Shown here: piece by piece, positions 35,473 through 50,275 of the stretch
Layout: every line of letters starts with the position of its first letter
Position numbering within the stretch: the first letter of the stretch is position 1
The notes under the pieces: generated by a model
The model's database searches: none
The model's input: only the letters and a program-made list of their open reading frames with translations
What the model was told of the DNA's origin: nothing
Assembly (NCBI GenBank): GCA_902628525.1
Contig: CACOMZ010000001.1
Coordinates: 62,001-126,000 of the forward strand
Reading direction: 5' to 3'
DNA from: an uncultured Pelagibacteraceae bacterium
GTDB taxonomy: Bacteria > Pseudomonadota > Alphaproteobacteria > Pelagibacterales > Pelagibacteraceae
Length of the DNA: 64,000 nucleotides
Made by a program: the position numbers and the translations under genes

Positions 35473-36441
35473 CTAACGTTGATATTCAATAAATTTCTTC
35501 AGTGATTTGTTGAGAAATTTCTCATAAATTTCACCATTATTTTTAAATTTACTTCCATTTAAAAATGATTTGTTCATTTTGAAATCGTAGGAAGGCTCAA
35601 AGAAAAAAGGAACAGAGAGTCTCTTGCTTTTATTCCACAAAACTCTGTGATTAGTTGCTTTAAATTTGCCTTTGCTTAAAAATTCTAGAGCTCTACCAGT
35701 ATTTACGACCAAAGCTTTTTTGTTAAATGGTACATCATACCATTTTTTGTTTTTTCTATTTTGAACTTGTAATCCACCTTTTTTATCTTGATAGAGAACT
35801 GTAAATACTCCGCTGTCTACATGAGTTTCACATCCAAGAGCAACCCCATCTTGTTTTGATACTTCTACTGGCTTAGTTTGATTAGGGTAATAGTTAAATC
35901 TCAATGTACTTAATGTTTTTAATCTTGAAAAAGCTTTCTTTGAAATATTTGGATTCTTTCTATTAAGTTTGATTATACTTTTAAATAAAGTTTCACTTAT
36001 ATCGTAAATATTATCAAAATATTTATTTAAAATCTTAATTGATTTTTTATTAAAACATTTATCTAAATTAAGATACTCTATATATTGATTGTTTAGATTT
36101 GAAGAATATTTTTTTGTTACCTTTAAATCACCTATGTCTAAACCTTCTTTTCCATTAACATCGTTAGGAAAATAACCCCTGTAGAAATTTTTATTATTTT
36201 TATTCCATTTTTTTGGTGATAATTTTCTTTTATTATTATCTGATAAATTAAAAAATTTATTTCCAACCTGACAGATTTTGTAAATTTCCTTCAAATTGAC
36301 TCCATGCCCTGTAATTTGAAAAAATCCAATATTAACACAAGCTTTTTCAATTTCTTTAATGGTTTTTAATGCACTTTGGGTTTCAAAATTATTTTCAATT
36401 AACGAGGATATATCAATTGTTGGTATATAGCTTTTTTTCAT
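35473..36441 (-). CDS. 2-oxoglutarate/Fe(II) oxygenase, isopenicillin-N-synthase-like family
   Basis: This 322-residue jelly-roll non-haem iron oxygenase begins with the DIOX_N region (IPTIDISSLI, then GFFQITGHGV). The catalytic domain has the H-x-D pair in ETHVDSGVFT (about residues 209-218), the distal histidine in ATNHRVLW and the 2-oxoglutarate R-x-S in KRLSVPFFFEP. All iron and cosubstrate residues are present. It overlaps the adjacent EamA gene by 4 bases, so it is probably in one unit with the two EamA transporters. Relatives act on many small metabolites, and this substrate is unknown. Confidence 0.9.
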   Translation of the reverse strand: MKKSYIPTIDISSLIENNFETQSALKTIKEIEKACVNIGFFQITGHGVNLKEIYKICQVGNKFFNLSDNNKRKLSPKKWNKNNKNFYRGYFPNDVNGKEGLDIGDLKVTKKYSSNLNNQYIEYLNLDKCFNKKSIKILNKYFDNIYDISETLFKSIIKLNRKNPNISKKAFSRLKTLSTLRFNYYPNQTKPVEVSKQDGVALGCETHVDSGVFTVLYQDKKGGLQVQNRKNKKWYDVPFNKKALVVNTGRALEFLSKGKFKATNHRVLWNKSKRLSVPFFFEPSYDFKMNKSFLNGSKFKNNGEIYEKFLNKSLKKFIEYQR

Positions 36442-37391
36442 CTTCTCACAGGTGTTTCTGTTGCAATGTATTGATCTCTAGCTTTTTCTCTAAAGTAAAT
36501 ATAAATTCCAGCAGCTATTATACACGCAACTCCAAAAAATGTTCTACCTGATGGAATTTCATTAAATAAAAAATATCCAGGTATCATTGACATAATAATT
36601 AATGAATATTCAAACAGAGAAACTACAGAAGGTGAAGCCACAATGTAAGCTGAAAATATGCAGAGAAAAGCTATAGAGGCAACAAAACCAAAAAATAAGA
36701 TAAATTTCCAGGTATATTCAATGTTTGAGAACCACTCTCTAAAAATAAACTGTGTAGTTGGATCAAAGTCTGGGTTATTCAATTGTCCATTTCCCATAAA
36801 TAAATATATAAGACCACATAAAATTAGGGCTATTAAATAAAAATAAAATAGTTGAGTATTTACATCGTCTTTATCAGATGTGTATTTTGTTATTGTCATT
36901 GATGCGGCATAAAAAAATGCACATAACACTGGAAGCAAACTTTTATATTCAAAGTCAGAAAAGTTTGGATCAAGCACAATAAAAACTCCCGCAAAACCAA
37001 ATACAATTGCTGACCATCTTCTTATCCCAATAAACTCTTTCAAAAAAAATTTAGCAAAAATAGATACAAAAAAAGGACAAGAGAAAAATAGGGCATTTGC
37101 CGTTGCTAAGGGCATATAAGTAAGAGAAATAAAGAAAGCTGAAAATGCTAAAAAGTGAAGAACTACTCTAACAATTGTTAAAATAGGATAATGAGTTTTT
37201 AATGAAACTTTTTGTTTTCTAAATTTTATGTAACTAAAAAGCAAAACAGCTGCAACAAAATATCTTCCAAAAAAAATCTCATAAAGAGATGATTTTTCAA
37301 AAATATATTTAATTAAAGAGTCTTGCATGGCAAACAAAGTCATTGCAATGATAATTAAAAATATACCTTTAGAATTATTGTCCTTTGTCAT
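36438..37391 (-). CDS. EamA/DMT-family transporter (tandem copy 2)
   Basis: This 317-residue DMT transporter has ten helices and two EamA repeats. It is clearly paralogous to the neighbouring gene at 37392: shared stretches include GIRRWSAI, FIFREWF, IASPSVVS-like ASPSVVSLFEYS, and the C-terminal ATE-x-P tail. The start codon directly abuts the stop of that paralogue. It overlaps the IPNS-like gene by 4 bases. The substrate is unknown; the pair may form a heterodimer or transport related compounds. Confidence 0.9.
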   Translation of the reverse strand: MTKDNNSKGIFLIIIAMTLFAMQDSLIKYIFEKSSLYEIFFGRYFVAAVLLFSYIKFRKQKVSLKTHYPILTIVRVVLHFLAFSAFFISLTYMPLATANALFFSCPFFVSIFAKFFLKEFIGIRRWSAIVFGFAGVFIVLDPNFSDFEYKSLLPVLCAFFYAASMTITKYTSDKDDVNTQLFYFYLIALILCGLIYLFMGNGQLNNPDFDPTTQFIFREWFSNIEYTWKFILFFGFVASIAFLCIFSAYIVASPSVVSLFEYSLIIMSMIPGYFLFNEIPSGRTFFGVACIIAAGIYIYFREKARDQYIATETPVRR

Positions 37392-38342
37392 TTATCTTAG
37401 AGGTTTTTCTGTAGCAATTGATTGATTTTGTGCTTTTTCACGCATAAAAATATAAATACCACTTGATACAATAATTAAAATTCCAATCACTGTATTTAAT
37501 GAAGGTATTTCATCAAAATATAACCACCCAACCAGAGGTGACCAAAATAATATTGAATATTCGAAAGGCGAAACAACAGAAGGAGAAGCTATGCTGTAAG
37601 CTGTAAATAAAAAAAAGAAAGCAATAGTAGCTGTAACACCAGTTGCAGTCATTAATAGGATATTGGAATTAAAATTAACAAACCATTCTCTAAATATAAA
37701 TTGAGAAGCTGGATGATTTAAAGTATTGTATTGACCGTCACCAATAACAAAATAGAAAATTATACTTAGAACAATTGCACCAATATAAAATGTAAAAGTT
37801 TGGGTATAAACACTATCCTTATCAGATGTTTTTTTTATAATGATCATAGATAATGAATAACAAAACGCACATAAAATAGGTAATAAACTTAAATAATTAA
37901 AATTACTGAAATCAGGATTTAATGTCACATAAACACCAATAAATCCCACAACCACAGCAGACCATCTTCTCAATCCTATTTCTTCTTTTAAAAAAAAATG
38001 AGCAAATATTGTAATTAAAAATGGAGTAACAAAAAATAAAGCTGTAGCAGTCCCAAGCGGTAACACAGTCAGAGAAACATAAAAAGAACTAAAACCAAAG
38101 AAAAAAAGTATTACACGGGTAAAAGTTAAAAGAGGATATTGGCTTTTAAATACTATTGGTTTTTTTGTAATTATTAAAAATAGTAAAATAAGCACAAAAC
38201 TTACTACTGTCCTCACTAAGTAAACTTCATAAAGTGAAACAAAATTATAAATATGCTTCATAATTCCGTCCTGTACAGAAAAAACCATCATGGCAATTAA
38301 TATGTAAGCTATTCCTTTTGGATTATTATTTGGAGTACTCAT
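37392..38342 (-). CDS. EamA/DMT-family transporter (tandem copy 1)
   Basis: This 316-residue DMT transporter is the first gene of the minus-strand group with its paralogue (36438) and the IPNS-like oxygenase. It has ten helices, NPKGIAYILIAM at the start, the LRRWSAVVVGFIGVYV segment and a short cytosolic tail ending ATEKPLR. It is divergent from the ureohydrolase gene across a 63-base gap that must hold both promoters. The substrate is unknown. Confidence 0.9.
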   Translation of the reverse strand: MSTPNNNPKGIAYILIAMMVFSVQDGIMKHIYNFVSLYEVYLVRTVVSFVLILLFLIITKKPIVFKSQYPLLTFTRVILFFFGFSSFYVSLTVLPLGTATALFFVTPFLITIFAHFFLKEEIGLRRWSAVVVGFIGVYVTLNPDFSNFNYLSLLPILCAFCYSLSMIIIKKTSDKDSVYTQTFTFYIGAIVLSIIFYFVIGDGQYNTLNHPASQFIFREWFVNFNSNILLMTATGVTATIAFFFLFTAYSIASPSVVSPFEYSILFWSPLVGWLYFDEIPSLNTVIGILIIVSSGIYIFMREKAQNQSIATEKPLR

Positions 38343-38405
38343 TGATGACCTATATCAAAAAAGAATATGTTTTTAAATTTATTAAATTTATGACATATTC
38401 ATCAT

Positions 38406-39392
38406 ATGAGTTCAGATGAAGATAAGATAATGATGGAAACTCTGTATTGGTGGGGTATTCCAACTTTATTTAGATGTAAAAATGATCCAGAACCAAAGAA
38501 CTGCGATATAGCTCTAGTTGGAGTTCCACACAGCACTGGAAACGGTACTACAGAAAGAGATCAACATTTGGGACCAAGAGCAGTTAGAAATATTTCAGCA
38601 ATGCTAAAACGCTCTCACTTTGACTATAAAATTGATCCTTGGAAAGAAAATAGAATTCATGATTTGGGGGATGTTCCTTTTCCAGAAGCAAATAACAATG
38701 AAAAATGTATTGAAAGGATTTCAGCTTTTTATAATCAAATTGAGGAAGCAGAAAAACCAGTTGTATCAATAGGAGGAGATCATTCTATAACAGGTGGAAT
38801 TGTTCAAAGCTTAGCAAAAAAAAATTCAAAACTCACAAAAGGTAAAAAAATAACTTTCGTTCATTTTGATGCTCATACTGATTGTTTTGAAAAATTAGAT
38901 CATTTTCTTGGAGCAAAAAAATCTGCTGCTCATTGGGCTTCTTACTTAGTTAAACAGGGAAACGTTGATCCACATACAAGTACTCAAATAGGTATAAGAG
39001 GAAATCCAAGAACATTAGATTGGCTTCAAGCTAGTTATGATATTGGTTATCAAGTAATAACTATGGATGAGTATAGAAAATGGGGCCATGAAAAATGTTC
39101 AAAAATGATTTTGGACAGGTTAGGGGACAATCCAATTTATATAACTTTTGATTTAGATTGTTTAGATCCATCGGTTGCACCAGGTGTTGCTAATATTGAA
39201 CCAGCATATAAAGGATTTAATATGGATGAGGTCAGAAAACTTCTTCAGTCCTTAAAAGGAAAAAATATTATTGGTGGTGATGTAGTGTGTTTAATGCCAA
39301 CTAAAGATAGTTCAAATCAAATAACAGCTATGGTAGCAGCCTCAATAATGTTTGAAATTATTTGTTTGATTTCTATAAATCGTAATAAATAA
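38406..39392 (+). CDS. Ureohydrolase (agmatinase/arginase superfamily)
   Basis: This dimanganese hydrolase releases urea from a guanidino compound. The 328-residue product has all metal ligands: H126 (SIGGDHS), D155, H157, D159 (HFDAHTDC) and D249, D251 (TFDLDCLDPSVAPG). The usual agmatinase substrate-loop motif around HGT-x-F is absent; the corresponding region reads HFLGAKKSAAHWASYL (about residues 166-181). The guanidino substrate may therefore differ from agmatine (for example guanidinobutyrate, guanidinopropionate or guanidine). It ends 1 base before the converging GMC oxidoreductase gene. Confidence 0.9.
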   Translation: MSSDEDKIMMETLYWWGIPTLFRCKNDPEPKNCDIALVGVPHSTGNGTTERDQHLGPRAVRNISAMLKRSHFDYKIDPWKENRIHDLGDVPFPEANNNEKCIERISAFYNQIEEAEKPVVSIGGDHSITGGIVQSLAKKNSKLTKGKKITFVHFDAHTDCFEKLDHFLGAKKSAAHWASYLVKQGNVDPHTSTQIGIRGNPRTLDWLQASYDIGYQVITMDEYRKWGHEKCSKMILDRLGDNPIYITFDLDCLDPSVAPGVANIEPAYKGFNMDEVRKLLQSLKGKNIIGGDVVCLMPTKDSSNQITAMVAASIMFEIICLISINRNK

Positions 39393-39393
39393 A

Positions 39394-40974
39394 TTAATTT
39401 AAAATAAAGTTCGACGCTCTTTCAGCAATCATTAATGTTGGAGCATTTAAGTTTCCACTTGTAATTTCAGGCATTACAGAGGCATCAACAACTCTAAGAT
39501 TTTCTAAACCATGTACTTTTAGTTTATCATCAACAACTGCTTGTTCATCAGTTCCCATCTTTAAAGTACAAGATGGATGATAAGCAGTTTCAGCTTTAGA
39601 TCGAATATACTCCTCAAATACTTCATTAGTGTCAGCATGTTCTCCGGGTCCAATTTCTTTTCCCGCAAATGGTTTTAAAGAATTTTGTCCTAAAATTTTT
39701 CTTGCAACATGAATGCACTCAATAGTTTGTTTTAAATCATCCTCATGCTCCAAGTAATTAAATTGAATTTTAGGATAGTCATATGGATTTGAGCTATTTA
39801 AGGTAACATGACCTCTGCTCTTAGGATGGTTTGGACTTGCATGTAATTGATATCCATGTCTATCTGGATCTACAAGTCCGTGGTCAATTACAAATGCAGG
39901 AAAAAAATGAAATTGAATGTTAGGATATTCTCTTTCAGGTGAGGATTTACAAAATCCACCAGCCTCTAAAAATGACGTTGAGCATGGACCTGTTTTTGAT
40001 AAAAACCACTGGATACCGATCCTTAACATATTTAATTTATTAATATAAGAATACAGAGTGTCAGATGTTTTACACTCTTGTTGAACGTAGGTTTCTAAAT
40101 GATCCTGCAAATTTTTACCAACACCTTCAAGATGATGCACAACATCAATTCCTTTGTCTTTCAAATGTTGACTAGGTCCAACTCCTGAAAGCATTAACAA
40201 CTGAGGTGAATTAATTGCACCACCACTCAGTATAACTTCTTTATTTGCATAAATTTTTTCAACTTTATTTTTTATTTTTACTTCAATACCTATTGCTTTT
40301 TTTCCATCAAAAATAATTTTTTCAACAAATGAGTCGGTAAAAATATTTAAATTTTTTCTTTTTTTTGCAGGATTTAAATAATATTTTGAAACACTCGCTC
40401 TTTCTCCATTATGAATAGTTACGTCATACATACCAAAGCCTTCTTGCTCCTTACCATTCATATCATTATTTATTTTATAACCAGCCTCTCCAGCTGAATC
40501 GATAAATGCTTTAAATAAAGGATTTTTATTTTTAGATTGATTAACTGGCAATATACCGTTACCACCTCTGTATTCATTCTCTCCTCCAGACCAAGTCTCA
40601 ATTTTTTTAAAATAAGGTAATACCTTTTCATATGACCAATCTGTTAATCCAAAAGATGCCCATCTTTGATAATCGTTTGGATTTCCTCTTACAAAAACCA
40701 TTCCATTGTGAGCAGAGCATCCCCCAATCATTTTTCCTCTTGGGCAAAATAATTTTCTGTTATTTAAATAAGGTTCTGGCTCTGAATAATATTTGTAATT
40801 ATATTTGGGATCATGCATCGTGTACAAAATTGCTAGTGGCATATTAACTTTCCAAATATCACTAGGTTTACCGGCTTCGAATATTGCTACAGTATTTTTA
40901 CCACTTTCAGTTAATCTATTTGCTAGCACACAACCCGCTGAACCAGCGCCAATAACTAAATAGTCATATTTCAT
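39394..40974 (-). CDS. GMC-family FAD-dependent choline/alcohol dehydrogenase
   Basis: This 526-residue glucose-methanol-choline oxidoreductase would oxidise an alcohol such as choline to the aldehyde. It has the FAD Rossmann motif VIGAGSAGCVLANRL at the N-terminus, the GMC signature 1 around RGKMIGGCSAHNGM, signature 2 GGAINSPQLLMLSGVGP, and the catalytic region AYHPSCTLKMG (His). It matches BetA-like proteins in length and motifs. It overlaps the HD-oxygenase gene by 4 bases and stands downstream of the TauD-like and thioesterase genes in one minus-strand run. Choline is a plausible but unproven substrate. Confidence 0.88.
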   Translation of the reverse strand: MKYDYLVIGAGSAGCVLANRLTESGKNTVAIFEAGKPSDIWKVNMPLAILYTMHDPKYNYKYYSEPEPYLNNRKLFCPRGKMIGGCSAHNGMVFVRGNPNDYQRWASFGLTDWSYEKVLPYFKKIETWSGGENEYRGGNGILPVNQSKNKNPLFKAFIDSAGEAGYKINNDMNGKEQEGFGMYDVTIHNGERASVSKYYLNPAKKRKNLNIFTDSFVEKIIFDGKKAIGIEVKIKNKVEKIYANKEVILSGGAINSPQLLMLSGVGPSQHLKDKGIDVVHHLEGVGKNLQDHLETYVQQECKTSDTLYSYINKLNMLRIGIQWFLSKTGPCSTSFLEAGGFCKSSPEREYPNIQFHFFPAFVIDHGLVDPDRHGYQLHASPNHPKSRGHVTLNSSNPYDYPKIQFNYLEHEDDLKQTIECIHVARKILGQNSLKPFAGKEIGPGEHADTNEVFEEYIRSKAETAYHPSCTLKMGTDEQAVVDDKLKVHGLENLRVVDASVMPEITSGNLNAPTLMIAERASNFILN

Positions 40975-41507
40975 ATAAGACTTGATGTTAGTAATTTTTT
41001 ATATTGATGAATAGATTTCATCTCAATATCTGTTTTTTTTGCCGCTTCATCAAATTTTCTTACAAGAATTGATGATTTAAAATATTTCTTTCTCTCAAAT
41101 TCTTTACATTCATCATCATTCAAAACACCACCCTGGAGATTTAAGCTTATTTTAGATGCTTCAGAAAGCTTATTAAAATATTTTTTATCCCTTGCTAAAT
41201 AACGTTTAGCGAGAACATGGTATTTAATTGGTTCTACAATCTCCTCTTTAAAAAAACTTTTTAAATATTCATAACCTATATTTTCATGTTCGCCATCCAA
41301 ATTTGACTCAACTAATTCATCTGGATTTTCAATAATGAAATGTCCATAATCATGCAACAGACATGAGCATATGACCTCTTTTTTACATTTAGCTTTTTCT
41401 GCTAACATTGCGGCCTGTATCATGTGTTGAGACATCGTTACATTTTCACCAATATAAAGTGATTGGTTGTTTGTAAAATTTGATATTATTTTTTCAACTA
41501 CTTGCAT
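40971..41507 (-). CDS. PhnZ/TmpB-type HD-domain mixed-valent di-iron oxygenase
   Basis: This 178-residue HD-domain protein has the features of phosphonate-cleaving oxygenases rather than of HD phosphohydrolases. The iron ligands are H28, H52, D53, H74, H97 and D153, and Y18-I-G-E21 corresponds to the PhnZ/TmpB tyrosine-glutamate motif that caps the iron site. LQGGVLNDDE and AKRYL also match the family. PhnZ and TmpB split the C-P bond of 1-hydroxylated phosphonates, giving phosphate and glycine or glycine betaine. The gene follows a TauD-like dioxygenase by 5 bases, which could supply the hydroxylated substrate. The precise phosphonate is inferred. Confidence 0.8.
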   Translation of the reverse strand: MQVVEKIISNFTNNQSLYIGENVTMSQHMIQAAMLAEKAKCKKEVICSCLLHDYGHFIIENPDELVESNLDGEHENIGYEYLKSFFKEEIVEPIKYHVLAKRYLARDKKYFNKLSEASKISLNLQGGVLNDDECKEFERKKYFKSSILVRKFDEAAKKTDIEMKSIHQYKKLLTSSLI

Positions 41508-41512
41508 TATAA

Positions 41513-42349
41513 TTATTGAGGTCTGTCTCCTTCAATTGCAATTCTATCCATAATTCTCTCATATCCCAAACCTCTACCAGGAAAAAAGTCAGCTATTGCA
41601 TAATGAATAACACTTCTATTATCCCAGATTGCAACAGTATTTTCTGTCCAGCTAAATCTACATGTTAGATCCAATCTTGCTTGATGCTCAAATATTTCCT
41701 TTAATATTTTATCACTTTCCTTTTTTTCTAATCCAATAATTTTTTTGGTATAAGTCCAATTAACAAATAAAATTTTTTTACCCGTTTCTGGATGCGTTCT
41801 TACAATTGGATGTTCGTTTGAATAAGAGTCATAATTTCTTTTTTCATTTCCTTCCATATATTTATAGTTATCTATGAAAAATTCTGCACCAAGTGAGCTA
41901 TGAATTGCTTTTTTATCTTTTATTTTCTCTTTAATTTTATCATCTAGTGTTTCCCAAGCTAATTCCATATTTGAAAAACAAGTATCACCACCAACAGGAG
42001 GGATTTTTAAAGATTTTAATATTACCGCTTTTGTTGGTTTTGCGTTGTAACTAACGTCACTATGCCAATTCTCACCCCATTGGTTTTTTTCTTCTTTACC
42101 TTTTATTATTCTGACAATTTCAGGATATTTTTCTAATCCTTTTACATAAGCATGTGTTTCCAAGGGACCGAACTTTTCCGCAAGGGCTATTTGTTGATCT
42201 TTTGTTATTGGCTGATCTCTAAAAAAAATTACTTTGTGTTCCAACAATAATTCATTAATCTTTTTAAAATTTTCGTCTGAAACATCTTTTAAATCTATAC
42301 CTTTAATTTCTGCTCCTAAAGCTCCAGATAATAATTTAATTTCCATCAT
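41513..42349 (-). CDS. TauD/TfdA-family 2-oxoglutarate dioxygenase
   Basis: This 278-residue Fe(II)/2-oxoglutarate dioxygenase has the H96-x-D98 pair in NWHSDVS, the distal H249 in WDNRSVIHYA and R265 for 2-oxoglutarate. It is of TauD length and architecture. TauD-family substrates include taurine, sulfonates and other organic acids. Placement 5 bases upstream of a PhnZ/TmpB-type oxygenase suggests it may hydroxylate a phosphonate for C-P cleavage. The thioesterase gene overlaps its start by 4 bases, so carnitine-pathway context is also present. Tandem ATGs at 42349 and 42346 leave the start uncertain by one residue. Confidence 0.88.
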   Translation of the reverse strand: MMEIKLLSGALGAEIKGIDLKDVSDENFKKINELLLEHKVIFFRDQPITKDQQIALAEKFGPLETHAYVKGLEKYPEIVRIIKGKEEKNQWGENWHSDVSYNAKPTKAVILKSLKIPPVGGDTCFSNMELAWETLDDKIKEKIKDKKAIHSSLGAEFFIDNYKYMEGNEKRNYDSYSNEHPIVRTHPETGKKILFVNWTYTKKIIGLEKKESDKILKEIFEHQARLDLTCRFSWTENTVAIWDNRSVIHYAIADFFPGRGLGYERIMDRIAIEGDRPQ

Positions 42350-42813
42350 TTTTTTAACTTACCTTTTATTAAAAGATCATTTTCATTAAAATTTATTTTG
42401 TTAGAATTTATAAAATCATCCATAATTTTTATTTTATCTTCCTCGAATTCTGATACTTTTCTTAAATTAAGGTTAATATATAAAGATAACATTTCAATTG
42501 TGGCTGAAAGTTTTTTTGAAGATTTTTCGATCATTTCCAATTTAAAATGTAATCTTTTTTTATCATGATCAAAAAAGGTTAAATTTATTTCTACTTCTTC
42601 CCCTTCTTTAACTTCATTGTTATAAGTAGTGTGAGTTTCCACTACCATAGTGCTTCTTTTTGAAGTTTTAGCTGAATTTTCACCCATTTTAAATTTATCA
42701 AGAACATTTTCCCAAACCCTGTCAAATACCAACACATAATAAGCCATGTTCATATGGTTATTGTAATCTGTCCACTCTTTTTTAATTATTTGATTTGCGA
42801 TATGCACTGACAT
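42346..42813 (-). CDS. Hotdog-fold thioesterase, probable betainyl-CoA thioesterase
   Basis: This 155-residue hotdog thioesterase of the 4-hydroxybenzoyl-CoA type has the N-terminal EWTDYNNHMNMAYYVLVFD (about residues 13-31), with the family D-x-NNHMN catalytic stretch. It is divergent from the BKACE gene across 47 bases, and next to that are L-carnitine dehydrogenase and the BKACE itself. This matches the carnitine operon of pseudomonads (CdhA, CdhB, CdhC), in which CdhB hydrolyses betainyl-CoA to glycine betaine. Specificity is assigned from context. Confidence 0.8.
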   Translation of the reverse strand: MSVHIANQIIKKEWTDYNNHMNMAYYVLVFDRVWENVLDKFKMGENSAKTSKRSTMVVETHTTYNNEVKEGEEVEINLTFFDHDKKRLHFKLEMIEKSSKKLSATIEMLSLYINLNLRKVSEFEEDKIKIMDDFINSNKINFNENDLLIKGKLKK

Positions 42814-42860: not shown

Positions 42861-43748
42861 ATGAGCAATAAGGTATTTATATCGTGTGCGGTTACAGGTT
42901 CAGGTGATACAGCTAGTAAGCATCCAGATTTGCCTAAAACTCCTGAACAAATCGCCAAAGCATCAATAGAGGCAGCAAAAGCAGGTGCTGCAATTGCTCA
43001 CATTCATGTTAGAGAGGATGATGGAACTCCTAGTAGGCGCTTAGAATTATATAAAGAAGTTATAGATAGAATTAGATCAAGTGACACTGATGTGATTTTA
43101 AATTTAACAACTGGTATGGGAGGGGATTTAGATATTGGCCAAGGTAAAAATCCTTTGGAATTTGGTCCAATGACTGATATGGCCAATGTAATGGAAAGGA
43201 TTGCAAATGCAGAACAATTTCTTCCTGAAATCTGCACACTTGATGCTGGAACATTAAACTTTGGGGATAGTTCTGTTATTACGGTAAATACTCCAAACGA
43301 TTTAAGAAAAGCTGCAAAAAAACTTCAAGAAATTAAAGTTAAACCAGAGGTAGAGGCTTTTGATTTGGGTAATATGTGGTTTGGTTCTCAATTATATAAA
43401 GAGGGATTATTAAGTGATCCACCGTTGTTTCAAATGTGTTTAGGAATACCATGGGGCGCACCCGCAACAACTTTAGCAATGCAAGCAATGAAAGATATAA
43501 TGCCAAAAGAGGGCGTATGGTCAGGCTTTGCAATCTCAAGAAATGAAATGCCATTTGTTGCACAGACTGTTTTAATGGGAGGTAACCCAAGAGTTGGTTT
43601 AGAAGATAATTTATATTTATCTAAAGGAAAATTAGCTACAAATGCCCAGCTAGTTGAAAAAGCTATAAGAATAGTAGATGAAATTGGTTACGCACCAATG
43701 TCACCAGCTGAAACAAGAGAAAAATTAAAACTTGTTAAACACAAGTAA
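42861..43748 (+). CDS. Beta-keto acid cleavage enzyme (BKACE), probable 3-dehydrocarnitine:acetyl-CoA type
   Basis: BKACE (DUF849) enzymes condense a beta-keto acid with acetyl-CoA and split it into acetoacetate and a new CoA thioester. The 295-residue protein has the zinc ligands H47-I-H49 and the E229 in SRNEMPF, plus the ICTLDAGTLNFG segment. With L-carnitine dehydrogenase immediately downstream (the two genes share a base) and a thioesterase divergently upstream, the likely reaction is 3-dehydrocarnitine plus acetyl-CoA to betainyl-CoA plus acetoacetate, as for CdhC. Substrate assignment is by context and overall similarity. Confidence 0.87.
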   Translation: MSNKVFISCAVTGSGDTASKHPDLPKTPEQIAKASIEAAKAGAAIAHIHVREDDGTPSRRLELYKEVIDRIRSSDTDVILNLTTGMGGDLDIGQGKNPLEFGPMTDMANVMERIANAEQFLPEICTLDAGTLNFGDSSVITVNTPNDLRKAAKKLQEIKVKPEVEAFDLGNMWFGSQLYKEGLLSDPPLFQMCLGIPWGAPATTLAMQAMKDIMPKEGVWSGFAISRNEMPFVAQTVLMGGNPRVGLEDNLYLSKGKLATNAQLVEKAIRIVDEIGYAPMSPAETREKLKLVKHK

Positions 43749-44692
43749 TGTCACAATTTAAAAAAGTTGCAGTTATTGGAACTGGGGTTATTGGCACAGG
43801 TTGGATCATTCGTTTTCTTGCTCATAATAAAACTGTTTATGCATTTGATAAAGATATTAAATTAAAAAAAAATGTACTTAAAGAAATCAAAAGAACTTGG
43901 CCATCAGTAAAAAAATTATTTAATAAAAAAAAATTAAATTTAAATAATTTTTATTTTTTCACATCATTAGAACAAACTCTGAAAAATGCCGATTTTGTTC
44001 AAGAATGTGCTAGTGAAAATTATGCTTTAAAAACTAAGTTAATGAACTTAATTGGAAAATATGCTAAATCAAATGCAATAATTTCCTCTAGTTCATCAGG
44101 TTTATTGCCAACAAAAATTTATTCAAAATGTAAAAATCCAGAGAGAGGAATTATAGGACATCCATTTAATCCTGTTTATTTATTACCAGCAGTTGAAATT
44201 GTTCCTGGAAAAAAAACTTCAAAAAAAAACATCAATTTAGCAAAAAATTTTTACAAATCTATTTCTATGAATCCAATTATGGTAAAAAACGAATTACCCG
44301 GATATTTATCCGACAGATTACAAGAAGCTTTATGGAGAGAAGGGCTTCATATTATTAACGAAGGGTACGCAACTACTGAGGAATTAGACAGAGCGATTGA
44401 GGATGGTCCAGGACTAAGATGGTCCTTAATGGGTACATTTTTAACTTTTCATCTAGCAGGTGGAAAAACTGGGATGAAACATATGCTTGAACAATTTGGA
44501 CCTGCTTTAAAATTACCTTGGACAAAATTAAAAGCTCCAAAATTATCAAAAAAACTATCATCTAAACTTATTTCAGGGACAGCAAAACAAACCAAAGGTA
44601 AATCGGTTGCAATGATATCAAATATAAGAGATCAGTATTTAGTTGATCTTCAAAAGTTAAGAAAAAAATACGAAAGTAAAATTAGAAGATAA
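43748..44692 (+). CDS. lcdH: L-carnitine 3-dehydrogenase
   Basis: This NAD-dependent enzyme oxidises L-carnitine to 3-dehydrocarnitine. The 314-residue 3-hydroxyacyl-CoA-dehydrogenase-fold protein has the Rossmann GTGVIGTGW (residues 11-19), SSSSSGLLP, the catalytic-histidine GHPFNPVYLLP, ALWREGLHIINEG, and GLRWSLMGTFLTFHLAGG. The last three stretches are characteristic of carnitine dehydrogenases (CdhA) rather than of beta-oxidation enzymes. It overlaps the BKACE gene by one base and the GFA-family gene by one base. No thioesterase domain is fused, unlike some LcdH; a separate thioesterase is encoded at 42346. Confidence 0.9.
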   Translation: MSQFKKVAVIGTGVIGTGWIIRFLAHNKTVYAFDKDIKLKKNVLKEIKRTWPSVKKLFNKKKLNLNNFYFFTSLEQTLKNADFVQECASENYALKTKLMNLIGKYAKSNAIISSSSSGLLPTKIYSKCKNPERGIIGHPFNPVYLLPAVEIVPGKKTSKKNINLAKNFYKSISMNPIMVKNELPGYLSDRLQEALWREGLHIINEGYATTEELDRAIEDGPGLRWSLMGTFLTFHLAGGKTGMKHMLEQFGPALKLPWTKLKAPKLSKKLSSKLISGTAKQTKGKSVAMISNIRDQYLVDLQKLRKKYESKIRR

Positions 44693-45878: not shown

Positions 45879-46904
45879 TTATGATTTTGTTAATGATGTC
45901 TGTAATTCTTTATTAGATATATATCCTTTAATATTTCCACTTTTGTCAACCACTTCACAATTAGAATTTGAGCATACAATTTGTGGTAAAAATTCTTCAA
46001 TAAATTGATCTTCATTTACTTTAATTAAATTTGTTTTATCAATATCATCTGACTCGTTAGTGCTTTTCATAATTATTTTAGCTTTAATTACTTTTGCTCT
46101 ATTCACGTCTTTAACAAATGCCTTCACATAATCATCTGCTGGGTTCATGATTATGTCTACAGGGGTTCCAACTTGAACCAATTTTCCTGCATTTAAAATC
46201 CCAATATGATCTCCTAATCTAAGAGATTCATCTAGATCATGCGTTATAAATACAATTGTTTTTTTCAATTCAGATTGAAGGTCTAATAATTGTTTTTGCA
46301 TGTCACTTCTAATCAAAGGATCTAATGCACTAAAAGCTTCATCCATTAACATTATGTCACTATCCGTCGCTAAGGCTCTCGCAAGACCTACACGTTGTTG
46401 CATACCACCAGATAATTGATTTGGAAATTGATTTTCAAAGCCACTTAAACCTACTGCTTCAATTTTTTCCATGGCAATTTTATTTAATTCTTCAATTGGT
46501 TTACCTTGCATCTCTAAACCATAGCCAACATTTTGAATTACTGTTTTATGTGGAAACAAACCAAATCTTTGAAAAACCATACTCATTTTATGTCTTCTAA
46601 ATTCTATTAATTGTTCTTTGTTAAAAGACATAACATTTGTTCCTTCAACAATAATTTCTCCATCTGTAGGGTCGATTAGTCTATTTAAATGTCTAATTAA
46701 AGTTGATTTTCCGGACCCTGATAAACCCATGCAAACAAATGTTTCACCTTCTTCTATTTTTAAAGAGACATTATCTAGACCAACTGTATGACCTGTTTGC
46801 TCTAATACTTCCTCTTTGTTTGCCCCTTCTTTTACCATTGGCATAACTGATTGAGGATTGTTACCAAAAATTTTGTAAACATTATTGATCTCAATTTTTG
46901 ACAT
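45879..46904 (-). CDS. proV: Glycine betaine/carnitine-type ABC ATPase ProV
   Basis: This is the ATPase subunit of a betaine/proline/carnitine importer. The 341-residue protein has the long ProV N-terminal segment ahead of Walker A GLSGSGKST (about residues 60-68). FQRFGLFPH, signature LSGGMQQRV and Walker B IMLMDEAFSALDP follow. The C-terminal region (about 270-335) looks like a single degenerate CBS unit, shorter than the double CBS of osmosensing ProV or OpuA. It overlaps proW by one base. In this island the likely cargo is carnitine, gamma-butyrobetaine or glycine betaine. Confidence 0.93.
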   Translation of the reverse strand: MSKIEINNVYKIFGNNPQSVMPMVKEGANKEEVLEQTGHTVGLDNVSLKIEEGETFVCMGLSGSGKSTLIRHLNRLIDPTDGEIIVEGTNVMSFNKEQLIEFRRHKMSMVFQRFGLFPHKTVIQNVGYGLEMQGKPIEELNKIAMEKIEAVGLSGFENQFPNQLSGGMQQRVGLARALATDSDIMLMDEAFSALDPLIRSDMQKQLLDLQSELKKTIVFITHDLDESLRLGDHIGILNAGKLVQVGTPVDIIMNPADDYVKAFVKDVNRAKVIKAKIIMKSTNESDDIDKTNLIKVNEDQFIEEFLPQIVCSNSNCEVVDKSGNIKGYISNKELQTSLTKS

Positions 46905-47935
46905 TATTTACCTTTCTTTGTATTTGGTGCTGTTCTCTCTTGAAGTGTTTCTCCATAAGATTGAGTAATTCTATCAAGAACTATTGCTAGGAGGACAATT
47001 GCAATACCTGCTTCAGCTGCTCTTCCTACATTTAATTGTTGAAGACCAAGTAAAACTTCGTCTCCTAAACCTCTAGTACCTATCATGGATGCAATGACAA
47101 CCATAGCTAATGCCATCATTGTACACTGGTTAATACCTTGCATTATATTTGGTAAAGCTAAAGGCATTTGCACCCCCCATAGCTTTTGTTTTTTACTTGC
47201 ACCAAATGCATCTGCAGCTTCGATAACCTCAGTATCAACAAGCCTTATTCCTAAATCTGTAAGTCTTACTAAAGGAGGAACTGCATAAATAAATGTTGCT
47301 ATAATTGCTGGAACTGCACCTAGGCCAAACAACATTATACCCGGAATTAAGTAACAGAAACTAGGAATAGTTTGCATTAAATCTAAAACAGGTAAAATTA
47401 CATTTCTGGTTCTTGCGCTTCGTGCCATAGCTATTCCCAATGGAATGCCTGCAACAACACAAAGAAATATTCCAATTAACATTATTGCAGTTGTTTCAAT
47501 TGCTTTTTGCCAAAATATTGGGTGGAGAAAACCTATAAAAAAAGTACAAAATCCTACAAATACTGTTGTTCCAACTTTTCTACTACTTGCAAAATAAGTT
47601 AGAACTATCACACCAAGTATAACTAATGGCCATGGAGCTTGAATTAAAAAGTTTTTTACAAGCATTAACATATATAAAAGAACATTATTAATAGCTTCAA
47701 ATATGTACCCATATTTTTCGTTAAGAGTTTTGAAACCAGAATTAATCCAATTCATTAATGGTAAATCTAACCATTTTGGCCATTTACCTCCTAACCAAGA
47801 AAAATCATTTAATAATTCTCCAATATTGTCAGGTTTTCTTTTTGATTGAGAATAGCTAGTTATTAATAACCATACAAAAATAACCAACAAACCAATATTA
47901 AAAAATATTTTTTTATTTTTCTTTAGTGCTTCCAT
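46904..47935 (-). CDS. proW: Glycine betaine/carnitine-type ABC permease ProW
   Basis: This 343-residue permease has an N-terminal membrane segment (about residues 10-27), a large external part to about residue 75 and six to seven further helices. The coupling segment reads ASKKQKLWGVQMPLALPNIMQGI (in two parts around residues 240-262), and LMQTIPSFCYLIPGIMLFG is strongly conserved in ProW. It starts 62 bases after proX; the gap contains a hairpin that could lower permease and ATPase expression relative to the binding protein. Confidence 0.94.
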   Translation of the reverse strand: MEALKKNKKIFFNIGLLVIFVWLLITSYSQSKRKPDNIGELLNDFSWLGGKWPKWLDLPLMNWINSGFKTLNEKYGYIFEAINNVLLYMLMLVKNFLIQAPWPLVILGVIVLTYFASSRKVGTTVFVGFCTFFIGFLHPIFWQKAIETTAIMLIGIFLCVVAGIPLGIAMARSARTRNVILPVLDLMQTIPSFCYLIPGIMLFGLGAVPAIIATFIYAVPPLVRLTDLGIRLVDTEVIEAADAFGASKKQKLWGVQMPLALPNIMQGINQCTMMALAMVVIASMIGTRGLGDEVLLGLQQLNVGRAAEAGIAIVLLAIVLDRITQSYGETLQERTAPNTKKGK

Positions 47936-47956
47936 ATTTGTTTTTTACTTAAAGAA

Positions 47957-47974
47957 AGAGCCCCGAAGGGCTCT
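47957..47974 (-). terminator. Hairpin between proX and proW (partial terminator or 3'-end stabiliser)
   Basis: AGAGCCC, the loop TTCG (on the minus strand) and GGGCTCT form a 7-bp stem capped by a stable UUCG-type tetraloop. On the minus strand the stem is followed by TTCTTT, a weak T-tract. It lies between the proX stop and the proW start. Confidence 0.7.
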
Positions 47975-47997
47975 ATCTTATAAATTTAATTTAGTGA

Positions 47998-49014
47998 TTA
48001 TAATGCTGCTGAAACTTTTTTAGCAACATCAGCTGGTACCCAGTCTTTCCACATAGTTTCTGTTTTCAAGAACTCTATTGCAGTAGCTTCCATATCACCA
48101 CCTGACTCATCTTCATAGAATGCTAACATTTTGTTAACAGTAGCTGTTGGAATCGTATATTTTCCAATGAACTCATTTTCTTTTGGATGAGCTTTTGCCC
48201 AAGTAGCAAGAACGGATTTAGTTAAAGCCATATCTCTGTACTCACTAGCGCAAGAAGGTTTATAAGCATCTGGACCATTTGCTTTAATGTCTTCTACAAC
48301 TGCTGACATTGCATCCCAGCATGCTTGATCAAATTTAGGCTCAGATAATCTTACAAGATCAACTTTACCCATTAAACCAGTTGGTGCCCAGTAGTATGTA
48401 AAGATTGGTTTTTTCTTAGCAAACGCACCTGCTATTGCAGCATCTAATGCACCTCCTGAACCTGGATCAAAGTTTGTATAGTATTTATCTAAACCATACT
48501 CTTTTTGTTTAACCAAGTTAACAGTGTAGCAAGTCCAACCAGATATACAGCTAGTCATTCTACCTTTTGAAGGATCCTCTGGATCTTTAAATAGCGCAGC
48601 TATTTTTGGATCTTTCATATCTTCAACAGATTTTAAATTGTATTTGTCAGCAGTAGCTTTATCTACATAGAATGCTTGCTGAGAGTCTGGAGTGTTTGTT
48701 CCCATATGGATAATTGTACCCGCTTCTTCGTGAGGCTTGTAATTACCAATAATGTTGTCATACCAAACTTCTGTAATTACGTCTAATTGACCGTCGTAAT
48801 GAGCAGCCATAATTGGAGTTGTACTACCTTTTGTTACAGACACTTCACAGCCATATCCTTTTTCAAGAATAAATGTTGTGATAGCTGTATGTATGTTTGC
48901 ACTACTCCAGTCAAAATCTCCCAATCTCGCCTTACAATCACCTGCGTTTGCGCTAGACACAGCCATAGATGATAAAAGGAAAATTGAGATACCTAATCTT
49001 TTTAAAAACTTCAT
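47998..49014 (-). CDS. proX: Glycine betaine/carnitine-type substrate-binding protein ProX
   Basis: This 338-residue periplasmic binding protein has a signal peptide of about 24 residues (ending ANA) and the OpuAC-family fold. DFDWSSANIHTAI at the start and several aromatic residues (W in TEVWYDN, Y-W in TYYWAPTG) could form the cage that holds a quaternary ammonium head group. A strong AAGGAGAT ribosome-binding site precedes it. It is first in the proXWV unit and divergent from the gamma-butyrobetaine-hydroxylase-like gene. Cargo is probably carnitine, gamma-butyrobetaine or betaine. Confidence 0.93.
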   Translation of the reverse strand: MKFLKRLGISIFLLSSMAVSSANAGDCKARLGDFDWSSANIHTAITTFILEKGYGCEVSVTKGSTTPIMAAHYDGQLDVITEVWYDNIIGNYKPHEEAGTIIHMGTNTPDSQQAFYVDKATADKYNLKSVEDMKDPKIAALFKDPEDPSKGRMTSCISGWTCYTVNLVKQKEYGLDKYYTNFDPGSGGALDAAIAGAFAKKKPIFTYYWAPTGLMGKVDLVRLSEPKFDQACWDAMSAVVEDIKANGPDAYKPSCASEYRDMALTKSVLATWAKAHPKENEFIGKYTIPTATVNKMLAFYEDESGGDMEATAIEFLKTETMWKDWVPADVAKKVSAAL

Positions 49015-49150: not shown

Positions 49151-50275
49151 ATGATTTCTAAATTAGAAAAAAATTCAACATTTTTAAAAGTTATCTGGAA
49201 GGATGGTGAAGAAAGTAAATTCAATTATCTTTGGCTAAGGGATAATTGTCCCACCGCACATGATAAAGACTCAAGACATAGAATGTTTAATATTCTTGAA
49301 GTATCTCAAGGCATTAATCCGAAAAATTATTCAATAGGTTCAGATGGAAAATTAGAAATTGAATGGAGTGAGGGAGATCATACAAGTTATTATGACCCCA
49401 AATGGTTAAGAGAAAATTGTTATACTTTAAAACATAAACAAAAATATGTTTCACCATATAAACTGTGGGATAGCTCATTAGAAAAAAATTTAAAATCAAT
49501 TCAAATTGATCATGATGAAATCATAAATACCGATGATGGATTAATTAAATGGTTAGAACTCTTGCACCACACTGGAATTGCAATTGTTAAAAATTCACCA
49601 GTCGAAAAAAATTCTGCATTAAAAGTTTTAAACCGTATAAGTCACACTCGAGAAACTTTTTTTAAAACCCCTTTTGAGGTGATTAATATTCCAAAACCAA
49701 ATAATTCAGCATATACCGCGCATGCCTTAAGAAATCATATGGATTTACCTTGGTTTGAAAATCCACCTGGTTATCAATTTTTACATTGTTTAATTAATTC
49801 AGCAAAGGGAGGGAACTCCTCTGCTGTAGATGCTTTCGCTGTTGCAGATTTTTTAAGAAATAATGAGAAGGATACTTTTGATATCTTAGTTAATACGCCA
49901 TTAAAATTCAGAGATAAAGACTACACACAAGAAGCGGTCAGAAGTGTTCATGGTACAGCAATATCACTAACTAAAGATGGAGATTATAATGACATTCGTT
50001 ATAGTATCGCCACACTAGATGCACTTGATTGTCATCCAGATATAATGGATTCTGTTTATAAAGCTCATCATCGATTTGGAAATTTATTACATGACCCAAA
50101 ATTCCAAATTAATTTCAGACTTGAGCCCGGCGATATTTTTTCTTTTAATAATAGAAGATTACTTCATGGAAGAACGGAATTTGATCCTAATTCAGGTCAC
50201 AGACACCTACAAGGTTATTATATGGATAGAGACGAAATTATTGGAAGATTAAATTATCTTAAACAGATTTCATAA
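49151..50275 (+). CDS. Gamma-butyrobetaine hydroxylase / TmpA-like 2-oxoglutarate dioxygenase
   Basis: This 374-residue dioxygenase has an N-terminal DUF971-type domain (NYLWLRDNC) and a TauD-like catalytic domain with H-x-D in RNHMDLPW (about residues 196-198), the distal histidine in RRLLHGR and a following HRHLQGYYMDRD. BBOX makes L-carnitine from gamma-butyrobetaine; the close relative TmpA hydroxylates trimethylaminoethylphosphonate. The N-terminal zinc site of BBOX (C-x-C-x2-C) is reduced to one cysteine, NCPTAHD. The start is set at the ATG 49151; a TTG at 49145 adds two residues. It is divergent from proX. Both substrates fit the neighbourhood. Confidence 0.88.
   Translation: MISKLEKNSTFLKVIWKDGEESKFNYLWLRDNCPTAHDKDSRHRMFNILEVSQGINPKNYSIGSDGKLEIEWSEGDHTSYYDPKWLRENCYTLKHKQKYVSPYKLWDSSLEKNLKSIQIDHDEIINTDDGLIKWLELLHHTGIAIVKNSPVEKNSALKVLNRISHTRETFFKTPFEVINIPKPNNSAYTAHALRNHMDLPWFENPPGYQFLHCLINSAKGGNSSAVDAFAVADFLRNNEKDTFDILVNTPLKFRDKDYTQEAVRSVHGTAISLTKDGDYNDIRYSIATLDALDCHPDIMDSVYKAHHRFGNLLHDPKFQINFRLEPGDIFSFNNRRLLHGRTEFDPNSGHRHLQGYYMDRDEIIGRLNYLKQIS

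Follow-up and report, generated by a model that had tools for sequence, protein, structure and literature searches.

A 64-kb stretch of a SAR11 (Pelagibacteraceae) genome, hereafter called the window, contains a run of four genes on the minus strand whose third member encodes an HD-domain oxygenase that, judging by its signature residues, may be of the TmpB type. The genome amounts to 861 kb in 32 contigs and is 67.62% complete. In order of transcription, the run consists of a 4HBT thioesterase (42346–42813; PF13279, 3.3e-23), a TauD-clade Fe(II)/2-oxoglutarate (2OG) dioxygenase of 278 aa (41513–42349; Pfam TauD, 7.2e-59), the HD protein of 178 aa (40971–41507; Pfam HD) and a GMC flavoprotein of 526 aa that resembles choline dehydrogenase, BetA (39394–40974; Pfam GMC). 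The thioesterase and TauD genes overlap by 4 bases, TauD and HD are 5 bases apart, and HD and GMC again overlap by 4.

Two sets of sequences were used for comparison. A locus scan with the HD protein retained the best 80 of 584 confirmed stretches, 37 from SAR11 and 43 from elsewhere, some of which stop at contig ends close to HD. A family draw comprised 197 genomes of the window's family (G handles). The sets overlap (L096/G119, L099/G073, L100/G057), and L052 and L100 represent one and the same HD.

The HD oxygenase

A first-pass annotation of the window had assigned the HD protein the iron ligands H28, H52, D53, H74, H97 and D153 together with a Y18-x2-E21 motif. All eight residues are present at these positions, and both ligands and motif are invariant in alignments of 13 and 25 rows, the latter covering five named phyla (L141, without the Glu of YxxE, and L053, without the segment, are not among the 25). 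This combination passes as a TmpB signature, but it is not specific to TmpB, since PhnZ has both features. Moreover, His62, Lys108, Ser126 and Arg158 of PhnZ, which we take to be its phosphonate-binding residues, align with H56, K101, S118 and R150 of the window protein, and these four are likewise invariant in the 25 rows.

Among solved structures, the best sequence match is TmpB (PDB 6npa, 1.5e-34, 122 bits), followed by PhnZ (7.4e-27, 97 bits); over the parts compared, identity is 47% across 146 residues with TmpB and 34% across 158 with PhnZ. The best NCBIfam scores are 170.6 for Phn-HD (TIGR03276, cut-off 214.6), 159.8 for TmpB (NF049941, cut-off 300) and 141.2 for hydroxymethylphosphonate dioxygenase (cut-off 300). 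The predicted model (predicted local distance difference test score 93.8) matches TmpB and PhnZ alike (2.2e-11 and 2.4e-11), and MIOX only with an E-value of 0.18. Fold comparison was therefore set aside as a means of telling TmpB from PhnZ, the scores for the two being nearly equal. A close-relative query found no HD relative in viral contigs.

A more telling position is residue 29, which directly follows the first ligand histidine and is Met in the window. Outside SAR11, where it was scored in 41 of the 43 HDs (the fused L131 and L139 were left out), Met29 occurs in 14 of 16 TmpA-adjacent HDs versus 2 of 25 others (p 3.5e-7, without correction for kinship), and both of these others fall in the TmpB clade; a TmpA-like neighbor in this survey is a gene whose best match among the references is one SAR11 TmpA. 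All 31 SAR11 rows of the window-HD clade have Met29, while PhnZ has Ser and a separate PhnZ-like SAR11 HD has Ala. At position 25, Met is found in 16 of 17 rows of the TmpB group, PhnZ and 20 of 25 others have Gln, and the 24 SAR11 rows linked to TauD or GMC have Met (19) or Ile (5). At positions 25 and 29 the window protein is thus Met/Met and not Gln/Ser as in PhnZ, a marker proposed in this analysis rather than a published definition.

Phylogenies were computed from 75 rows, without duplicate SAR11 loci and without HDs outside 150–299 aa (the fused L131 and L139), and from a set thinned to 50 rows. In both, the SAR11 HDs form one clade with 100/100 support. A subclade of 7 rows (two being one identical HD) has no adjoining GMC gene and has TmpA adjacent in 2; the remaining SAR11 rows are linked to GMC, mostly together with TauD. 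With 50 rows, the SAR11 clade falls inside a 29-row group (83/87) that holds every TmpA-adjacent HD of that tree, a group not recovered with 75 rows. Constraining SAR11 to group with TmpB costs 1.13 log-likelihood units (approximately unbiased test, p 0.432), and grouping it with PhnZ and the PhnZ-like SAR11 HD costs 9.93 (p 0.224). The tree to which the first-pass annotation looked for placement thus gives the SAR11 proteins a clade of their own and rejects neither grouping; it leans to TmpB without showing membership. On sequence grounds, we regard the HD protein as a YxxE oxygenase of the TmpB/PhnZ group that leans to the TmpB type. The earlier assignment to carbon–phosphorus (C–P) cleaving PhnZ/TmpB oxygenases accordingly keeps the support of YxxE, of TmpB as the nearest solved structure and of Met29, but it is not anchored by a fixed position in the tree.

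The TauD-clade dioxygenase and conservation of the run

The active site of the TauD-clade protein is intact. Its iron triad (H96/D98/H249), its 2OG ligands (T123/R265) and its anion site (H66/R269) are present in 43 of 43 rows and in all 53 rows of a further set, which omits distant paralogues from G042 and truncated TauDs. The protein shares 35% identity with E. coli TauD and scores 230 bits, short of the 313 that NCBIfam sets as the cut-off for taurine dioxygenase. According to PMC9304159, His70 and Arg270 of TauD hold the taurine sulfonate, and Asp94, Asn95 and Ser158 make up the amine network. In all 53 SAR11 rows Asp94 is replaced by Trp and Asn95 by Gly, and Ser158 is variable; the SAR11 orthologues also have Val for Tyr73 and Tyr for Phe104, Phe159 and Phe206. 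The conclusion that this pocket is not a taurine site, while its anion site is kept, stands at the level of sequence. We also considered a specific trimethylammonium cage and did not retain it, because much of it is shared by 29 same-class relatives; a quaternary-amine substrate is suggested mainly by gene context. Among these relatives His66 is found in 21 and Arg269 in all 29, Tyr101 (7/29) and Tyr200 (4/29) are rarer, and the alignment at position 162 is unreliable. The predicted TauD structure was poor (58.9) and was set aside.

We next turn to how constant the run is. The order TauD–HD–GMC recurs in 32 of the 37 SAR11 loci, counting L099, in which TauD is split over two frames, and in none of the 43 other loci. 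Since it is repeated so often, the order is not a matter of chance, and the pairing of HD with TauD beside a choline-dehydrogenase-like gene, recognized in the first-pass annotation, is borne out. The other five SAR11 loci comprise three with HD–GMC and no TauD and two of the sister subclade. None of the 43 non-SAR11 loci has a TauD of the window's kind by HD, and 18 have a gene best matching SAR11 TmpA.

The family draw adds co-occurrence to gene order. Window-type HD was found in 23 of the 197 genomes, PhnZ-like HD in 3, a TauD orthologue in 26, and window-type HD together with TauD in 16 (Fisher 7e-12, uncorrected for kinship). Matches of about 18 bits in three genomes (G051, G154, G164) were not taken as HDs, G042 paralogues of TauD (38–39%) were not counted as orthologues, and a 70-aa TauD piece in G116 lies outside the 26. 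Met29 is carried by 23 of the 26 counted HD genes (one, in G006, interrupted), the other 3 being PhnZ-like. In 20 of the 23 HD genomes there is a TauD orthologue and/or a TmpA over the cut-off (NF049936, 400); neither is found in G006, G069 and G123.

An obligate TauD–HD pair is ruled out by the existence of TauD–GMC and of HD–GMC loci. TauD–GMC is therefore the more constant pair, with HD a frequent insert, and TauD probably has another, HD-independent use. In G057 and G130, for example, TauD and GMC lie together with HD elsewhere. The idea that TauD is the partner of HD holds in that the two are adjacent in SAR11, but in our sample only there, and each also occurs by GMC without the other. 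TauDs without a nearby HD are spread over several places of the TauD tree.

Several loci deserve a note of their own. In G178, a TauD orthologue (72%; L175:7200–8027) is flanked by an alginate-lyase-like gene and a glycosyltransferase and accompanied by neither HD nor GMC. In G073, the TauD frame at L041:844–1670 is split in two, by decay or assembly error, with HD intact and an over-cut-off TmpA about 16 kb away. In some SAR11 lineages, an HpcH/HpaI-family lyase gene (CitE/RipC-like) immediately precedes the thioesterase gene, as seen in nine loci (L038, L039, L077, L078, L082, L093, L177, L179, L182), five of which lack TauD. Directly upstream of TauD, five loci in four genomes (L043 and L096 of one genome, L050, L183 and L184, the last two without HD in the run) have homocysteine-methyltransferase-family and DAO/GcvT genes, typed in L050 and L183 as homocysteine S-methyltransferase and DAO plus GCV_T with scores below every NCBIfam cut-off. 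Such a pair is as expected for betaine and dimethylglycine breakdown.

Neighboring genes, TmpA and other phosphonate machinery

The remaining genes of the run and its neighbors bear out the earlier view, by NCBIfam and Pfam typing, that the run lies among carnitine and betaine genes. The GMC protein scores 741.5 on the choline dehydrogenase subfamily model (cut-off 605) and 679.7 on the betA equivalog (cut-off 732.1), and its best PDB match is an oxygen-dependent choline dehydrogenase at 509 bits, the next reaching 338. A second GMC paralogue (about 41% identity; four tested) is lower on both models, at 479–518 for betA and 564–612 for the subfamily. The thioesterase resembles the C-terminal part of carnitine 3-dehydrogenase (NF005716 positions 345–469, below cut-off). 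Diverging from the run on the plus strand are genes for a beta-keto acid cleavage enzyme (42861–43748; PF05853, 305.1 bits) and an L-carnitine dehydrogenase-like protein with 3HCDH domains (43748–44692; NF005471, 347.4 bits, cut-off 414). Beyond this divergent pair is an aldehyde dehydrogenase nearest to betaine-aldehyde dehydrogenase (429.5, cut-off 668.6). Also beyond the pair, on the minus strand, is an ABC transporter of the betaine/proline/choline type (45879–49014). Its ATPase belongs to the proV subfamily (359.3, cut-off 326.6), its permease scores best as choline permease (265.3, cut-off 363) and its binding protein is PF04069 OpuAC. On the other side of the run (35473–39392), two tandem EamA-type genes accompany a small 2OG dioxygenase gene and one of the arginase family; in related genomes, their conservation beside the run varies.

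The plus-strand gene at 49151–50275 encodes another 2OG dioxygenase, resembling gamma-butyrobetaine (GBB) dioxygenase and TmpA, as the first-pass annotation had recognized. It scores 318.2 of 414.75 on the GBB model and 269.4 of 400 on TmpA, below both cut-offs. That this protein is the hydroxylase of HD is highly improbable: its closest solved structure is TmpA at 178.7 bits, with GBB dioxygenases close behind at 171.6, but its orthologues (77–78%) occur in G063, G105, G180 and G190, none of which has an HD match, and a gene of the 49151 type is also present where a true TmpA is encoded, as in G073 and G122. The likeness to GBB dioxygenase and TmpA stands, and as a partner of HD it probably has to be given up.

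No TmpA over the cut-off was found in the window's genome, at its 67.62% completeness. Among 30 SAR11 genomes searched, six have one (G042, G082, G073, G092, G116, G122). In G042 and G082, TmpA (541.7 and 533.6 bits) divergently adjoins the HD of the sister subclade, accounting for 2 of its 7 rows. In the other four, TmpA lies away from the single HD match, which is in a GMC-linked run, and no window-type HD was seen in the readable TmpA flanks (both flanks in three genomes; in the fourth TmpA is at a contig end). The HD of the GMC-linked run may therefore serve the product of TmpA in these four genomes; they are 55–76% complete, so that a second HD could be missing. In the three fully flanked genomes, a different HD-domain protein, 'HD2', which has no YxxE, is encoded about 5 kb from TmpA. 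As a separate observation, G057 encodes a TmpA-like dioxygenase (L052:11324–12975; 329–352 bits, below 400) beside a further HD-domain protein, in which the HD ligands are retained and YxxE is absent and which matches no NCBIfam family. Related dioxygenases occur in 19 of the 30 genomes, including that of the window (G000:C1:226782). The dioxygenase is also present in three genomes that gave no HD match (G003, G017, G063).

A search of 12 SAR11 genomes found PhnJ of the C–P lyase and PhnD over their cut-offs in two, G035 and G140, each of which has the PhnZ-like HD. This protein, a second HD oxygenase of SAR11 that has YxxE and, like PhnZ in kind, Gln/Ala at positions 25 and 29, is encoded at L030:9911–10462 (G035), L031 (G140) and L032 (G166). 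In G035 and G140, about 9–10 kb separate it from PhnJ, and PhnD is close by; G166 yielded no PhnJ. The L030 gene overlaps one resembling the major facilitator superfamily and adjoins a small arsenate-reductase-like gene (names by reading), with no hydroxylase recognized beside it.

A proposed route to glycine betaine and its alternatives

We propose, with a probability of roughly 0.4, that the SAR11 run is a module yielding glycine betaine, in which the HD protein would cleave the C–P bond of a hydroxylated trimethylammonium phosphonate, with TauD most likely supplying its substrate. The TauD-clade dioxygenase would convert trimethylaminoethylphosphonate (TMAEP), O2 and 2OG to (R)-1-hydroxy-TMAEP, the step carried out elsewhere by TmpA. 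As a putative TmpB-type mixed-valent diiron oxygenase, the HD protein would then turn this (R)-1-hydroxy-2-trimethylammonioethylphosphonate-like compound, with O2, into phosphate and glycine betaine. The GMC protein would oxidize choline or betaine aldehyde, and the thioesterase, as a candidate betainyl-CoA thioesterase, would release betaine from betainyl-CoA, so that each of the four genes can be understood as feeding into glycine betaine. What we observe is the gene order, its conservation, the intact active-site residues and a residue linked to TmpB; from these we infer all substrates, products and reactions.

A number of our own results weigh against this proposal. The HD protein passes no NCBIfam cut-off, and the trees do not fix its placement with TmpB or with PhnZ. 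Among the best 80 of 584, its highest-scoring non-SAR11 matches come from Bacteroidota, and no TmpA was seen next to these HDs; the unlinked HD of L116 and the TmpA-linked HD of L143 both score 135 bits, the TmpB part scoring 127 and the PhnZ part 103, and overall similarity does not separate the TmpB type from others. Met25 occurs in 1 of 7 rows of the SAR11 TmpA-linked subclade (Ile in 5, Thr in 1), which makes position 25 the weaker marker. For TauD, the invariant pocket columns that were checked show no difference, over 53 rows, between those with HD close by and those with none within 1.5 kb (the latter including L046, L183 and L184, which have HD elsewhere in the genome), and the 29 same-class relatives (37–45% identity) already have Phe or Trp at position 91 in 26 cases and Gly92 in 27. 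At the genome level, 10 of the 26 TauD genomes are without window-type HD (G035, G105, G126, G127, G152, G166, G170, G178, G180, G190). In 8 of these GMC directly follows TauD; of the other two, G126 is truncated where its contig ends, and G178 has TauD by the alginate-lyase-like gene without GMC. Two of the ten, G035 and G166, have the PhnZ-like HD elsewhere. Conversely, HD–GMC without TauD or over-cut-off TmpA is found in G069 and G123. Finally, PhnJ and PhnD reach their cut-offs in none of the 9 searched genomes with window-type HD, that of the window (G000) included. This lack somewhat weakens a phosphonate reading, and it suits a role in carbon or betaine supply. With PhnD detected in none of the 9, these genomes are without a recognized phosphonate importer, and import would have to be left to another system, such as the adjoining betaine-type transporter.

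The strongest competitor, which we hold to be somewhat unlikely, accepts a TmpB-type HD and makes TauD and GMC a separate module, leading for example from trimethyltaurine or choline-O-sulfate via betaine aldehyde to glycine betaine. HD would be co-located for the shared product and receive its hydroxy substrate from another hydroxylase or from seawater. TauD–GMC without HD and HD–GMC without TauD, the scatter of HD-less TauDs over the TauD tree and the retention of the sulfonate-binding His and Arg are all consistent with such a split. It sits less well with the co-occurrence of HD and TauD far above chance in the 197 genomes (kinship again uncorrected), with the 5-base gap between them in the window and with the 20 of 23 HD genomes that have a candidate hydroxylase.

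In our proposal, TauD probably also takes an HD-independent analog, such as a sulfonate whose hydroxylated form breaks down by itself. In genomes without HD, our guess would be N,N,N-trimethyltaurine or a sulfate ester, which would need TauD and GMC only. A broader and distinctly speculative version, which we consider unlikely, is that the SAR11 hydroxylase of the taurine-dioxygenase type takes trimethylammonium sulfonates or phosphonates alike, the sulfonate adduct collapsing by itself and the phosphonate adduct needing the optional TmpB-type HD. Most SAR11 'phnZ' would then be TMAEP-to-betaine genes and not genes for 2-aminoethylphosphonate, and TMAEP would be widespread in the ocean.

Alternatively, the run could follow the PhnY/PhnZ scheme for 2-aminoethylphosphonate (2-AEP) or another phosphonate, with TauD hydroxylating 2-AEP and HD yielding phosphate and glycine. 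We think this improbable. 2-AEP is an isostere of taurine and the anion site of TauD is kept, the HD model fits PhnZ as well as TmpB, and a PhnZ grouping is not rejected (p 0.224); the window protein, on the other hand, has Met25 and Met29 where PhnZ has Gln and Ser, the amine network described in PMC9304159 is lost at Asp94 and Asn95 and variable at Ser158, and the run is surrounded by betaine genes. Slightly less probable still is that HD cleaves a bond other than C–P, as MIOX does with a C–C bond, in carnitine or betaine catabolism. The carnitine and betaine surroundings would fit, as would the failure to find PhnJ and PhnD in the 9 genomes with window-type HD, but YxxE is present, a motif that a review assigns to PhnZ and TmpB and not to MIOX (PMC8177086). 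The residues aligned with the presumed phosphonate-binding set of PhnZ are also invariant.

The assignment of substrate bears on how phosphonate use in the ocean is counted. According to a survey (PMC9381506), Pelagibacterales contribute 45% of marine phnZ sequences, and phnZ is treated there as the leading 2-AEP route. A review (PMC10574752) gives phnZ estimates for surface waters from <1% to about 20% and mentions a study that split phnZ by substrate subtype and still found a lower total. Window-type SAR11 genes may be counted in such surveys as degraders of another phosphonate, which bears on these disputed counts; should TMAEP be the substrate of the Met29 type, much of what is recorded as oceanic 'phnZ' may be credited with the wrong compound. 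In the open-licence literature searched, we found no description of a TauD-linked TmpB-type gene in SAR11, and listings on trimethyltaurine (taurobetaine), on TMAEP and on PhnZ together with TauD offered nothing relevant.

Three known systems frame the proposal, and the hydroxylate-then-cleave pairs among them are already published (PMC10574752, PMC8177086). With TmpA/TmpB of Leisingera caerulea, which converts TMAEP to phosphate and glycine betaine, the run shares the HD ligands, YxxE, Met25/Met29 in the window and betaine surroundings, and the sister SAR11 subclade has a true TmpA adjacent in two of its rows. It differs in that the hydroxylase by HD is of the TauD clade and not a GBB-hydroxylase-like TmpA, in the GMC gene that follows, and in an HD score far under the TmpB cut-off. 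PhnY/PhnZ, which yields phosphate and glycine from 2-AEP, and the G. maris PhnY/PhnZ, which acts on methylphosphonate, resemble it in HD fold, iron site and the hydroxylate-then-cleave chemistry that we propose for SAR11; they differ in that the neighbor of HD in SAR11 is of the TauD clade and that PhnZ has Gln/Ser at 25/29. E. coli TauD shares the iron and 2OG ligands and the equivalents of His70 and Arg270 at 35% identity, and is unlike the SAR11 protein in Asp94, Asn95, Tyr73 and Ser158, which became Trp, Gly, Val and a variable residue, and in a family score (230 versus 313) that the latter does not reach. Chemistry of the TmpA/TmpB type is thus already known; what sets the SAR11 run apart is an unusual candidate partner, a TauD-clade neighbor of an HD oxygenase that leans to the TmpB type.

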